Positions 24,426-34,211 of a DNA stretch of 64,000 nt are shown here, piece after piece; position 1 is the stretch's first letter, and each line of letters starts with the position of its first letter. Source of the stretch: Polytrichum commune (Eukaryota; Streptophyta; Polytrichopsida; Polytrichales; Polytrichaceae); contig OX485807.1 in the NCBI GenBank assembly GCA_950295325.1, positions 14,411,001-14,475,000 on the forward strand, written 5' to 3'. Made by a program: the position numbers and the translations under genes. The notes beneath the pieces were generated by a model. That model had not been told where the DNA came from and did not search any database. It saw nothing but the letters and a program-made list of their open reading frames with translations.

Positions 24426-25041
24426 ATGAAGGAGGGCGAGGTTCCAAGCACAGTAGTTCCAAGAGCTCTTAGATCATGTAGAGGTAGAGGAAGAAGACGA
24501 AGTAGCCATTTTACACTGCCAAAGCAACTGAAGGCTCAACGGAGACGACGGGAAAAAATGGCTCTTAATCAAATTGTTGAGGTTGATAGCAGCTCAAATG
24601 ACACAAACCATTTGAACTTTAAGGAATTAGGGGATATTTGCAAGGTAAATATTCTCAATGGTTTATGGGTAGTCTGTTGAGGGTTCGCGTATTGACCAAG
24701 CTGTGTATTCATAGACTTAAACTATGGCTGAGAAAATTCGGAGCTTTTTGCATAACCTGCATTTTTGTGACTATGACTGTGATCACTAGGGTTTTTATCA
24801 TTAGGGTTTTGAGCATTCGTTGAATGATTTGCAGGGTATTGCCTGTGAAGTTGGCGACCTAGGGGACGCATGCCCCGGAGATCAGCCAACGATTGAGGCT
24901 CAATCTCCCCTTGCCGAAGAGGTAGGTTTTAGTAATTAGTTTTGAATGCCTTATGTAATTATTTCTGGAGGAGAGGAGGCTTCGCCGGGTTTACACATCC
25001 CTCATAGTGTGCGGTCTGGCTCTAGAACAACCTACATGAAG

Positions 25042-25065
25042 CCTTGTCTCGGATCCGAGACAAGG
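25042..25065. repeat. 24-bp perfect palindrome (copy 1)
   Basis: Core TTGTCTCGGATCCGAGACAA extended by CC/GG. Preceded by ATGAAG, as is copy 2. Lies at the left border of the 25S fragment. Confidence 0.95.
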
Positions 25066-25089
25066 GTGAAAGGGCAATTTTCATGTCTT

Positions 25090-25334
25090 AGGATCGACTA
25101 ACCCATGTCCAATTGCTGTTCACATGGAACCTTTCTCCACTTCAGTCTTCAAAGTTCTCATTTGAATATTTGCTACTACCACCAAGATCTGCACTGGAGG
25201 CCGTTTCACTCGGGCTCGCGCCCAAAGCTGCTCCACGACCCCCACGCCCTCCTACTCATTGCGGCCTCGCACTTGCCCCAATGGCCGGGTGTAGGTCGCG
25301 CGCTTCAGCGCCATCCATTTTCGGGGCTAGTTGA

Positions 25335-25368
<34 letters not shown>

Positions 25369-25588
25369 ATTTCGACTTCCATGACCACCGTCCTGCTGTC
25401 TTAATCAATCAACACCCTTTGTGGGATCTAGGTTAGCGCGCAGTGTGGCACCGTAACCCGGCTTTCGGTTCATCCCGCATCGCCAGTTCTGCTTACCAAA
25501 AATGGCCCACTTGGAGCTTGAGAATTGGTCGAGGGTGTTACACCCCCGATGCCTCTAATCATTCGCTTTACCTGATAAAACTTCACGA

Positions 25589-25623
<35 letters not shown>

Positions 25624-29794: not shown

Positions 29795-31010
29795 GTTAGA
29801 ATTTAGATATTTTATTTGTTTTCGTTATTTTTAAGTTAATCTTAGTTAGGTAAAAACCGGTCTTAAGTTGAAGACCGGATGAATTGATAAATGGATGTGG
29901 TAGGTAGGATTGGATTTACCGGCGGGCCAATAGCTAACCACCTAGGAGTTCTAGAAGGTTTTTACTTTAAATTCCTATTGGCTTGCCGGATTAGCTTTTA
30001 GCCCCAAACTTCCTATTTCTAGCGGGATAAAGGTTCTAGAAACCTTTAAACCCATATCTTTCTTATTTCTAGTAGGATAAGGATTCTATAAATCTTTAAC
30101 CCCAAAAGTCACCCATTAGCAAGCCACTTGGAGGGGTTCTAGAGGACCTTACCTCGATGGTTTCCTATTGGCCGAAAGGGGGCAAGGTGGAAGACTATTT
30201 AAGGGGTGTCAGAAGAGTGTTTAGGGGGACCATTAGTATTTTGAAGTTGATACTTGTGTAGGATCGAAGGAGCTTAGAACATTTTGAGAGGAATAAGTAC
30301 TTAGGAGGCTCATTTATACAAAAGGGTGTGGAGGTGTGGCATTTAGAGTGACTAGATTGCACTAGGTGCACTACTTGTTGAGTTTTATTGGTTATGAACT
30401 TGATCAAAATTTTATAGTGAAAGATTTGTCAATTATGGATGATCGGAGTGTTCAATGGATATGAAAATTTGAGGAATTATTTATTCTGAGTTATGAAAAT
30501 TGTGGTAAAAATTTGAGAGCTTCAATCATTGGCATGAAAACGTTATTAAGAGTTGAAGGGAAGGGTGTCTAGGAACAAAACCAACTAAACTAGGAAAGTT
30601 TGAAAATATGTATATTTTAGAGGATTATAGATATGAATACTAAAATTTGACACTACCTTTTGAACTTACACATCTATCTTGTGTTAAAATCTGAGATTTA
30701 TTGGAAATAAGAGTAGGAAGTTATTAAGATTTTAGTGACCGGGTGTTTTATCACAGCATTCATGCTAGGTAGTTAAAGTTAGAATATAATACATAACTTT
30801 TGCATATGAACTCTGATTGTGCTCAAATTTGGTGAGAATGTTTTCATAAGGTACTTAATAAGTAAACTAAATTTCACTTGAAGAAGATGAGTTGGTTTTG
30901 AGTTATACTATTCTGAAGTTTAGAGGGACCATATTGAGAGAGATTTACATCAAGAGTGTAGAAGAAGGTAAGCTACTATATATTTTTTTAAACACTACCA
31001 TAAAATAGAA
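29795..31010. mobile_element. Possible solo LTR or other insertion inside an intron (low confidence)
   Basis: The run after exon 5 differs in texture: imperfect internal repeats of TTCTAG..GGATAA at 29990-30090, a TATA-like TATTTAAGGGG at about 30197, then over 600 bp of AT-rich DNA. It sits where the second MULE gene needs an unusually long intron. I found neither clear TG..CA ends nor a 5-bp target duplication. Confidence 0.25.
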
Positions 31011-31239
31011 GCCCGGCGCTTACCGGATAGTGCACATTTTCCTTGACACCGTTTGAACTACAGGCCGCCGCAACTAAAGCTGTTGAGGCAAAGAAGACCT
31101 CCCTCTCCACAGACCTATCTCGGTACCTCGCAATTACCAATCCAGCAAATGGAGAGGGTTTCATAAGAGAGGTATGTGCTCCACCATCTATCATAGATTT
31201 TTTTGTTTTTTGTAATTTTATTCAACTTGGTTTGCATGG

Positions 31240-31253
31240 TCTCGGATCCGAGA
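31240..31253. repeat. 14-bp core palindrome (copy 7)
   Basis: TCTCGGATCCGAGA with outer arms decayed (GG..GAAG). Lies in the intron after exon 31064-31171. Confidence 0.9.
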
Positions 31254-32731
31254 GAAGTTAGATGGGACGTTTATAATAAATATTTATGAAATAATAATCC
31301 TCTTACTATTGTGTGCTTTGTTTTAGAAAAAGTTCTATGTGGCTGAGGTAAGTGATTAGTTAAATTAGGAGGCCTTCACTGGTTTTTGTGATGCTATTTT
31401 GTGTGGTTGGCTTGATTATGGGTTTAAGAGAGATAAAAGAAACAATTAATGTCGTAAATTTTATATATATGTCATTAAATGTTTTCTATATTATGTCTTT
31501 TTTTGTAGTGCAAATTTTTACTAATCTAATTGTACTTTTGAAAGTAGATTATTCGTCACTTTGATATCTTTCAAGTGAAGCTTGAGATGACTTCAGAGAA
31601 ACTACAACTTATTGCAACAACAAAGGTTTCTTCGAAGCACAAAGAGAGATGGTGAAGGTGCTGGAATATGAGTAAGGAGAGTCGTAAAGAATACAACTTT
31701 CCTCCCTCACCCACTTCTGATTCAGTTCTTCGGATTTGGATAGATCAAGCTGCCTTCTGGGCTGGGGTATGTTATTTTGAACCGTATATTTTAATTTTTT
31801 GGTGAAGTTTAAGTTATATCTAAAATTTGAGAATTAGATGGATTGAATTGAATTTGTTTTGCTGAATAATTGTACATTGTTGTAGTTAGAGGAAGAGGCA
31901 GTAAATCGATTTGAGAAAATTATGGAGGAAAATGCTATCATATTGAAGACCGAGGACTTGCCCAACCCAGTGGACGATATTGGAACTTGGATTGAGTCCC
32001 ATTCTATTATTTTGTGGGGGAAGGCTTTCAAAGAATTTTTTTCAAAGGATGGCACTTATACGAAGAAGGAGTTATTTCTTGTCCAAGCTGGTACTGAGAA
32101 TGCTATGAAGAGAGCTATCTTGAGATATTTCTGGAGGGAGTTGGTGATTAAGGGGGCCATTGATAGGAAGAACATTCCTCAACGTTTTAACAAGTGGGTG
32201 GATGTTTCTAGTAGTGAATGTATTTTTTCAGACTATCAGAAAAAATATTTTGGAAGACCTCATCTTCTTCAATGTCCTTGGTATCTTGAGTTAAAGGAAA
32301 ATGAAAGATGTCCTGGAGAGGAGAGAGCCTTGAAGGCTAGTTGTGACAATATGATGCAACAATTAGAGGTTGAGAATTTGGTGCATATTGAAGAAGATGC
32401 ATCGGAGGTGGGTGATGACAGCTCTATATCTCACAAACAAAGGAAGAAATTGGCTGACAATAAAGCAAAGGTTGAAACTCGTTTGAAGGAGAAAGAAGAA
32501 AAGAAGAAATGCAAGGAGGAGGAAATAAAGTTGAAGAAGGAGGTTGTGGCACGGAACAAAGAGTTGGCGAAGCTTGTGTTAAAGGAAGGGCCAGAGAAAC
32601 TTCTTTCTTATGTGGGTATTTCTCCTTCAAGCAGTAGCATGCCCGCTACTATAAGTCCTTTGGTTTCTCAGGTGCCTCTTTCCGTTGCCCTTTTTTCTTC
32701 ACAAACGGTGTATACTATCCCATGCTCGTAG

Positions 32732-33821
32732 TTGGATGATGTAGAGAGTGGGATAGAGATCATCAATGATAGTCCTTCAGGTATTTTGGACTTGTTTGAT
32801 GATGTTACTGAGAGTGATGAGCCAAAGATTTGGAGGCGTATGAAGGCATGGATTAAAGATCATCAAGGTAAAAAGATTCGAAATTATGTGGGTTATGAAG
32901 CTGACAATATAGTTGATCTTGTTATCTTTGATGTTCCAGAGGATTTACCTGTTCTTGGACTTGGTATTGCTGGTGAAATTCCACCTTGGAACCGTCATCC
33001 AAAGACTAAACCAGAGGGTATAGATGGAATAGTGGAATTCATATGGATCAAGAGGCATTTTGAGTTTGCCATGCAGTTTCTTCAAGATGATGGTGCCCTC
33101 ATTGTATTTTATCCTGATTCAAAGTTTATATCCAATGAGCTTTTATCTTGGGTGGATTAGGCAAATTTTCAGGAGGAATCCAAGTGGTTTGCAATTAACG
33201 GCCTTCCTTTTACTGTCCCGGATCATCCATCCCGTATGCACAAAGTGTTTCATGGTGAAATGCTCTGTTAGAAAGGAAAATCCGGATGAAGAGGTTCCAA
33301 TGTCCAATTTTGTGTTTTGTGACCATCCTGAACTTCTTGCACAGGGCATCAAGTTGTCATCAGATGGACATCTCACAAACCTCATTGATGTTGATTCTCT
33401 AACTGTTCAGTCGGAGAATAGAATGCCATTTAGAGGTGCACGGAAGAAGTCTTCTAATTACTCATCGCTCTTATTGATCTCTGCACGGTTGAAGATGACA
33501 TTGTCATGGACCTCACAGCCTCCACATGTATTATATTTTCCCTATACTTTTCTTTTGATATGTTTTGTCATTAATTTATACCAAGTACTAAATGGTATTG
33601 TTTATTTCAGGTGCTTCTGTTCGGGCATCAAAGAGTCTTCATCGTCATATTATTGCATTTGAATATGACAATATCTTATACAAAGAGGTATTGGTTCGTC
33701 TTCTTCCCCAAGCTGAAGAAGTTCAGTCAGTCAAAGTTACAAGGTCTTCTCCAAAGAAGAAACGCCCTTTGGAGAATGCAGATGAGCCAGAGAAGAAGAC
33801 TGTTGCCAAGCGAGCTTGTAA
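32732..33821 (+). other. Two exons encoding the methyltransferase-like domain
   Basis: The order catalytic-motif region first (DVPE at 32930-32941; LQDDGALIVFYPDSKF strand after it), then PFRGARKKS, then the AdoMet-binding glycine-loop region (MDLTAST|CASVRAS across the intron 33528-33610) and acidic strand end (IIAFEYD) is that of beta-class N4-cytosine/N6-adenine methyltransferases. The codon split by the intron is T|GT (Cys), one base from G|GT (Gly), where the family has Gly. A TAG lies at 33158. The frame moves +1 between about 33270 and 33460 and then returns. Catalysis is unlikely in this copy. Confidence 0.62.
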
Positions 33822-34211
33822 GTAAGTCTACACTATCTATCTTCAAATTTTTAAACATGTCCTCAATTTTTCTTACCAACATTTTTAAATGGTTGATTTT
33901 TACTTGTTTATAGATGGCGCAAGGAAGCGTTGAAGTCCTCTATGATGAAGTATGATGGAAGCATTCTCTCACACTATATCAGTAAGATTAGAAGCCCTAT
34001 TAGACCTCTTCAACTTCCTTTTCATGCTGAGATTGTTGCAGAAGCGCATGCAGCTACTTCATCACCAGACCTTTCTCCAGAAAAACATAGTAGTTGCCGT
34101 CCTGTAGAAAAATATTTCCATATTTCTGCAGAAGTTGATGGATTATCTAGTGACAGTGATAGCGAGGAAGGATGGATTGAGGCTTCTAATGATGTTGAAA
34201 TGTCTTCGTGA

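Follow-up and report, generated by a model that had tools for sequence, protein, structure and literature searches.

A ParB- and methyltransferase-like accessory gene in a Mutator-like transposon family of the moss Polytrichum commune

Can a plant DNA transposon carry a gene that joins a ParB-like fold to a DNA methyltransferase-like fold and, if so, what might the encoded protein do for the element? This question is raised by a 64,000-nucleotide stretch of the moss Polytrichum commune (GenBank assembly GCA_950295325.1, contig OX485807.1; C5:14411001-14475000 in the contig numbering used here), referred to below as the window. An original prediction, made from the sequence of the window, had described such a gene at 24426-34211; these coordinates fall inside a transposon and cover only part of it, the element extending from 19407 to 34937. 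On balance, the evidence favors a Mutator-like family with a ParB-methyltransferase accessory protein that may serve self-recognition at palindromes upstream of its gene and that has an altered catalytic motif IV, the copy in the window being dead. Relatives were sought in the 408-Mb assembly (64 contigs, of which C1 to C7 together hold ~406 Mb).

The element and its accessory gene

The ends of the element are defined by the following features, in which TIR denotes a terminal inverted repeat.

19407-34937, no strand: whole Mutator-like element, 15,531 bp; ends from alignment of the paralogues cA and cB, TIRs and an exact 9-bp duplication
19398-19406, no strand: left 9-bp target-site duplication, CCCCACCCA, identical to 34938-34946
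34938-34946, no strand: right 9-bp target-site duplication, a copy of CCCCACCCA
19407-19476, plus strand: left TIR of TGAGC[G/A]G heptads, from paralogue ends and TIR comparison
34876-34937, minus strand: right TIR, from paralogue ends and TIR comparison

Four elements were read end to end, namely the window copy, two subfamily-A paralogues (cA, 12,972 bp, from L034 and L035, C3:14614500-14632499, reversed; cB, 13,304 bp, from L036 and L037, C2:63011000-63028499) and a subfamily-B copy (cC, 8,582 bp). All four are flanked by exact 9-bp target duplications (CCCCACCCA in the window, AAGCAGTAA in cA, TTTGCAAGT in cB and GTGTGTTAC in cC) and share, across both subfamilies, the terminal core GCTATCTT[G/A]TGAGCG[G/A]TGAGC, followed by TGAGC[G/A]G heptads. 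In the window the TIR core GCTATCTTRTGAGCGGTGAGC, with up to 3 mismatches allowed, occurs at 19415 and 34910 only, which are the two ends of the element. The anatomy is that of a Mutator-like element, for which TIRs and a duplication of 8-10 bp, typically 9, are characteristic; no Pfam MULE domain was recognized, and the superfamily assignment therefore rests on the element ends. These ends also confirm that the gene is carried by a transposon. The subterminal heptads (19407-19476 and 34876-34937 in the window; 4006-4095 in L038) form a candidate transposase-binding array.

The accessory gene is divergent from the transposase gene, and its predicted product starts with a fold of the nucleotide-binding ParB/sulfiredoxin (Srx) type, continues through a helical and coiled-coil region and ends in an amino-methyltransferase fold of the beta class, an architecture shown by sequence, exon order and predicted structure together. 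Its parts in the window are as follows.

28680-29270, plus strand: ParB/sulfiredoxin-like exon, from homologues and predicted structure; frame broken near 29180; donor AACAA/GTAAGT as in cB, L073 and L070
29121-29132, plus strand: GNHR of the conserved WDGNHR, codons read directly, and family alignment
29392-29599, plus strand: second exon, from sequence and intron comparison
29680-31171, plus strand: third exon, split by the insertion at 29772-31048, from sequence, paralogue and intron comparison
29772-31048, no strand: later insertion of 1.28 kb with an apparent 5-bp duplication (CCGTT), without counterpart in cA and cB
31548-31766, plus strand: exon IIRHFDIF...AAFWAG, from genome matches and intron comparison
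31886-33527, plus strand: coiled coil and methyltransferase exon, motif IV to motif I, from homologues and structure; stops and a frameshift in the window copy
32930-32941, plus strand: motif IV position, DVPE in place of DPPY, from sequence and alignment
33509-33526, plus strand: motif I region DLTAST, from sequence and alignment
33611-33821, plus strand: exon GASVRASKSLHRHIIAFEYD..., remainder of motif I and motif II (33655-33669), from sequence and alignment
33914-34211, plus strand: last exon, stop codon at 34209-34211, from open reading frames
24426-24644, plus strand: Arg-rich 'leader' of the original prediction, unsupported as part of the gene, with no match in cA, cB or cC (best tblastn E 6-7)

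The window copy is a pseudogene, because the ParB frame is lost near a T-run at 29180, stops terminate several frames and the third exon is interrupted by the insertion. The two halves are nevertheless taken as one gene since intron positions and exon order are conserved. The copy cB (subfamily A), locus L070 (subfamily C) and locus L073 share the donor after the N-K of the ParB exon and the next intron, as well as introns before [I/N]RH[FY], after AAFWAG and inside motif I (the first acceptor in L070 is inexact, and the motif-I acceptor of cB was missed by the anchors used). Moreover, in L073, which lies on contig CADCWO010000058.1 of a metagenome assembly filed as cyanobacterial in GTDB, every exon block is open from ParB to the C-terminus over a span of 4.7 kb, the last exon having been matched by eye; as the gene bears introns, this contig is probably mis-binned plant DNA. 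A micro-exon, KKFYVAE (31327-31347), was considered and dropped, L073 having a single 86-bp intron there. In the assembly, at least 24 of 65 methyltransferase loci (merged from 71 of 115 matches) are preceded on their own strand by a ParB exon no more than 6.2 kb away, and at least 25 within 12 kb, one at 9,088 bp being left uncounted. The other 40 have no upstream match among the 150 of 998 ParB candidates that were scored, which is not evidence of absence because the list was limited to those 150. The fusion of both folds in one gene that had been predicted is thus upheld by intron positions, exon order and the open L073.

At E ≤ 0.001, 24 database proteins are related to the ParB-like exon, with identities of 37-98% for most. 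In an alignment of 20 of these, LCRM, GY and W..W vary little or not at all and at least 90% conservation is seen in WDGNH, and the codons at 29121-29132 do encode GNHR. The predicted structure has the ParB/Srx (ParB-CTPase) fold, which the original prediction had made a condition of its own survival, and PHROG 1033 ('ParB-like') is matched by 3 of the 20 members (best E 0.05). In 12 subfamily-B loci the ratio of nonsynonymous to synonymous polymorphism (pN/pS) of this exon is 0.21.

For the methyltransferase-like half (31886-33160), six related proteins were found, 41-95% identical, and one of them, P0003 (641 residues), extends from motif IV as far as motif II, a short intron being translated along with it. 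The predictions likewise contain the Rossmann methyltransferase fold that had been expected, with the permuted order IV ... X-I-II of the beta class; the order proposed for the window stands, with the motif-IV region, an X-like motif, motif I and motif II at the positions listed. The nearest structures are N6-adenine and N4-cytosine methyltransferases. The original prediction had also proposed a test against the DNA_methylase N4/N6 profile. Of the Pfam families, PF01555 scores best with P0003 (E 0.01) and is alone in matching the subfamily-B C-terminal exon (E 0.13), in both cases below the curated cut-off (best 16.2 bits vs 26.7), and it is matched by 3 of the 14 rows of the methyltransferase alignment A3 at E ≤ 1. 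Aligned by hhalign with a canonical ParB-methyltransferase (L001, described below), A3 gave E 0.00043 over motifs X-I-II, against 0.76 for an unrelated protein. A tblastn comparison of the window motif-IV exon with phage sequences gave no match, and a sequence search of the PDB returned nothing relevant.

Upstream palindromes, the altered motif and what they may mean

Palindromes lie upstream of the ParB exon, and the window contains the following.

25044-25063, no strand: palindrome TTGTCTCGGATCCGAGACAA, exact, from the palindrome scan
25879-25898, no strand: palindrome, exact, within a 30-bp perfect palindrome, from the palindrome scan
27448-27467, no strand: palindrome, 1 mismatch, at the edge of a ribosomal RNA (rRNA) gene piece, from the palindrome scan
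28212-28658, no strand: 154-bp tandem array just 5' of the ParB exon, with palindromes at 28228 and 28387 (exact) and 28541 (2 mismatches)

A total of 5 perfect palindromes of at least 18 bp that are not AT-rich occur in the whole window, of which 4 are TTGTCTCGGATCCGAGACAA, all within the element; 20 shuffles gave 0, or 1 in a single shuffle. At up to 3 mismatches TTGTCTCGGATCCGAGACAA has 7 matches in the window, again all within the element, and none in 100 shuffles. Of 18 subfamily-A loci, 17 have its 16-bp core, GTCTCGGATCCGAGAC, 5' of the ParB exon; the palindromes of this subfamily sit inside tandem repeats, and the copies cA and cB keep them despite the loss of nearly all of the transposase. 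Further, L073 has GTCTCGGATCCGAGAC twice exactly and once with one mismatch 5' of its ParB exon, and the DNA around these sites gives, among the matches listed, a single 24-bp alignment (87.5%) with cA/cB. In subfamily C (L070), one 26-bp near-palindrome with the center CGGATCCG lies 5' of the ParB exon. In subfamily B two other palindrome families occupy this position in 12 of 12 loci: GTTTGGGTCGNNCGACCCAAAC, with 89 sites in which 18 of 20 arm positions are 97-100% constant (the other two 82% and 85%), the center dinucleotide is free (nine kinds) and the flanks are 36-87% conserved, and CCCTGTGCGTTAACGCACAGGG, with 3 to 10 sites per locus. A 26-bp perfect palindrome outside the element (ATTATAGTGGGATATCCCACTATAAT, 59758-59783) is unrelated.

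Constant arms around a free center would be the expected trace of a dimeric DNA-binding protein. Bacterial ParB proteins bind palindromic parS sites, and because of this and of the pattern of arms and center, a parS-like arrangement is proposed. The accessory protein would load, in the manner of ParB, at the palindromes 5' of its own gene and so recognize its own element; once loaded, it may mark or shield the element, or regulate its two genes and transposition. The methyltransferase fold probably retains its cofactor pocket with the catalytic motif altered to D-x-P-E, and it might either have a changed chemistry or serve for binding without catalysis. Taken to its full extent, this would be a eukaryotic parS-like system in which a nucleotide-dependent ParB clamp sits at palindromes that co-evolve with the subfamily (GTCTCGGATCCGAGAC in subfamily A and L073; GTTTGGGTCGNNCGACCCAAAC and CCCTGTGCGTTAACGCACAGGG in subfamily B), the fold with its fixed D-x-P-E has become a reader or has gained a new enzymatic chemistry, and the transposon tells self from host DNA. 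We put this forward tentatively, as a possibility well short of an even chance.

The palindromes could instead be bound by the transposase or a host factor, or be selfish repeats, with no relation to the ParB-methyltransferase protein. Their position between or near both genes and, in subfamily A, within self-spreading tandem repeats would suit this; the 16-bp core common to subfamily A and L073 amid DNA that does not align, the nearly fixed arms and free center in subfamily B, and the retention of palindromes in cA and cB without nearly all of the transposase argue in the other direction, and such an explanation is considered rather unlikely.

A similar standing is given to the proposal, published for the algal proteins, of an active N4-cytosine or N6-adenine methyltransferase that is guided by its ParB domain to modify the element's own DNA, for example to escape host silencing. 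It agrees with the beta-class fold and its closest structural neighbors, with a motif I that is best kept, and near-canonical, in subfamily C (DINAGVG...GTS, compared with DLTASTG...GAS in subfamily A) and with a pN/pS of 0.19 over the methyltransferase core in 6 subfamily-C loci. The catalytic motif stands against it. A (D/N/S)PP(Y/F/W) motif is replaced by D-x-P-E-like sequences in the loci read, and DPPY was found in 0 of 30 loci with a motif IV (35 scanned, some overlapping, by a pattern that may miss copies with another lead-in) and in none of the A3 rows that reach it. The variants are DVPE or NVPE in subfamily A, DIPE or DLPE in subfamily C, DILE or DIPE in L067 and L071, DYPD in L072, DAPE in L068 and QFPD in cC of subfamily B, the fourth position being acidic throughout in place of aromatic. 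The pN/pS values of subfamilies B and C show that a protein is maintained by constraint, and classic methyltransferase catalysis is in doubt because motif IV is D-x-P-E-like and never DPPY in the copies read.

The remaining sequence of the element includes a transposase gene and captured DNA.

20082-23713, minus strand: broken transposase gene in four open blocks, from open reading frames; two blocks match the cC transposase remnant
24925-27443, minus strand: captured piece of a large-subunit rRNA gene, rearranged (Rfam RF02543, 759 bits)

The two matching blocks have 57% and 59% identity with the minus-strand remnant in cC. A Pfam search for a MULE transposase domain gave only an irrelevant match for the four window blocks (E 0.07), and in the subfamily-B homologue (cC) a SWIM finger is sub-threshold (E 0.069). 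In cA and cB a shared stretch of ~3.7 kb (L034-L037), lying between the left terminus and the array of palindromes, replaces the transposase in the manner of Pack-MULEs; the idea that every copy has a transposase was accordingly rejected. A tRNA-Met (CAT) gene lies elsewhere in the window (63363-63434, plus strand).

One palindrome marks the edge of the rRNA piece (27448) and another a duplication junction (25879), which looks as though breakage or joining of DNA had taken place at these points. The ParB domain could be imagined as a nickase regulated by nucleoside triphosphates that aids excision or replication while the methyltransferase fold holds the DNA. According to PMC5512222, DNA is nicked by the ParB domain of a ParB-methylase from Bacillus cereus, and the palindromes at or near junctions of the rearranged rRNA sequence point the same way; hairpins alone may explain such junctions, and the reading is improbable. 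That the two halves are unrelated genes or a chance likeness, as the empty spliced-product search and weak sequence-profile scores might suggest, is very improbable and was rejected on the common intron positions and an L073 gene open in another organism, with the predicted structures and linkage in many loci beside them.

Several results weigh against the favored interpretation of a ParB-methyltransferase protein acting at its own palindromes. No Pfam ParB family is among the matches of the 20 ParB-exon members at E ≤ 1, this being the outcome of the ParB profile test proposed in the original prediction; Foldseek gave no match for the ParB half at E ≤ 0.001 (best 0.026), and hhalign against two ParB proteins was negative. 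The ParB identity is therefore one that is visible in predicted structure, without support from sequence. One search for a spliced product joining the halves (joined-model residues 1-410, in a query that still included KKFYVAE; 5,024 candidates) found none, and for this reason we infer their joining at the RNA level. Constraint is weak in subfamily A, with a pN/pS of 0.50 for the ParB exon (12 loci) and 0.56 for the methyltransferase (11 loci, 10 with stops), as expected because these copies are recent and mostly dead. In cA and cB the transposase is reduced to its C-terminal 52 residues, the rest being replaced by other sequence. It should be noted that up to 4 arm mismatches were allowed in selecting the subfamily-B sites, so that arm conservation is somewhat inflated, and that the shuffle controls cover the window palindromes only; the binder may also be the transposase or a host protein instead of the accessory protein.

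If the protein does bind the palindromes, the ParB-parS principle would have been put to use by a eukaryotic transposon, and the family would offer a direct way to test how DNA transposons recognize and protect copies of themselves. With a catalytic motif that is altered throughout, it is also in question whether these widespread transposon 'methyltransferases' methylate at all, which bears on eukaryotic reports of N4-methylcytosine and N6-methyladenine. Intact diverged copies make both binding and methylation testable.

Comparison with known systems

The original prediction held that a transposon-borne eukaryotic ParB-methyltransferase would be new. An accessory gene of this kind has been reported in the Ectocarpus transposon Sola1-1_Ec32, and the same source cites similar proteins from transposons of green and red algae (PMC12477816). 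The moss element is consequently a variant and not the first. It differs from Sola1-1_Ec32 in being Mutator-like, with a 9-bp duplication, and in belonging to a land plant, the algal proteins being compared by description only; the altered motif IV and the upstream palindromes of the moss family may be further differences. The algal arrangement, with both domains in one protein and the gene opposite the transposase, was found in the window and in cC, and in cA and cB only the transposase remnant is kept. The studies behind the green and red algal proteins are reportedly those of Iyer, Abhiman and Aravind (2011) and Petroll (2025). The literature searched, which did not extend to these two primary algal studies, showed no land-plant or Mutator-borne ParB-methyltransferase and no associated palindrome arrays; within that literature, the setting in a Mutator-like element, the changed motif IV and the palindromes are new.

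The two folds are most familiar from bacteria and phages, and it is plausible that a prokaryotic module was recruited. ParB-fold fusions to PF01555 are enriched in phages (PMC12704722), and these phage and bacterial fusions, like L001 and the plant protein, have ParB followed by a methyltransferase with motifs IV, X, I and II. L001 (contig C12) is a canonical fusion of 501 residues, with PF02195 and PF01555 both above cut-off; together with L002 and L003 (C23) it lies on small contigs with bacterial- or phage-like ParB proteins that are probably contamination. It is intronless, with CDPPYG and FAGSGAT. The plant gene is split by introns, and its product has D-x-P-E, a coiled coil in the middle and a helical insert preceding GNHR; the two ParB parts fail to align by profile. 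A search of bacterial and archaeal genomes with alignment A1 gave three loci (L073, L074 and L075) and no close prokaryotic relative, L074 and L075 being chance matches inside an oxidoreductase-like Bacteroides protein; in viral contigs the same alignment gave 20 pattern matches, none confirmed.

The N4-cytosine methyltransferase of bdelloid rotifers (PDB 8s9m) is also among the closest known systems. The rotifer enzyme is not known to have a ParB domain or a transposon context. The ParABS system is resembled in the predicted ParB fold, in palindromic sites in cis and in the 16-bp core, canonical parS being itself a 16-bp palindrome. The palindrome of the element differs in sequence from canonical parS, and a further difference is that the sites of the element form families that differ between its subfamilies.

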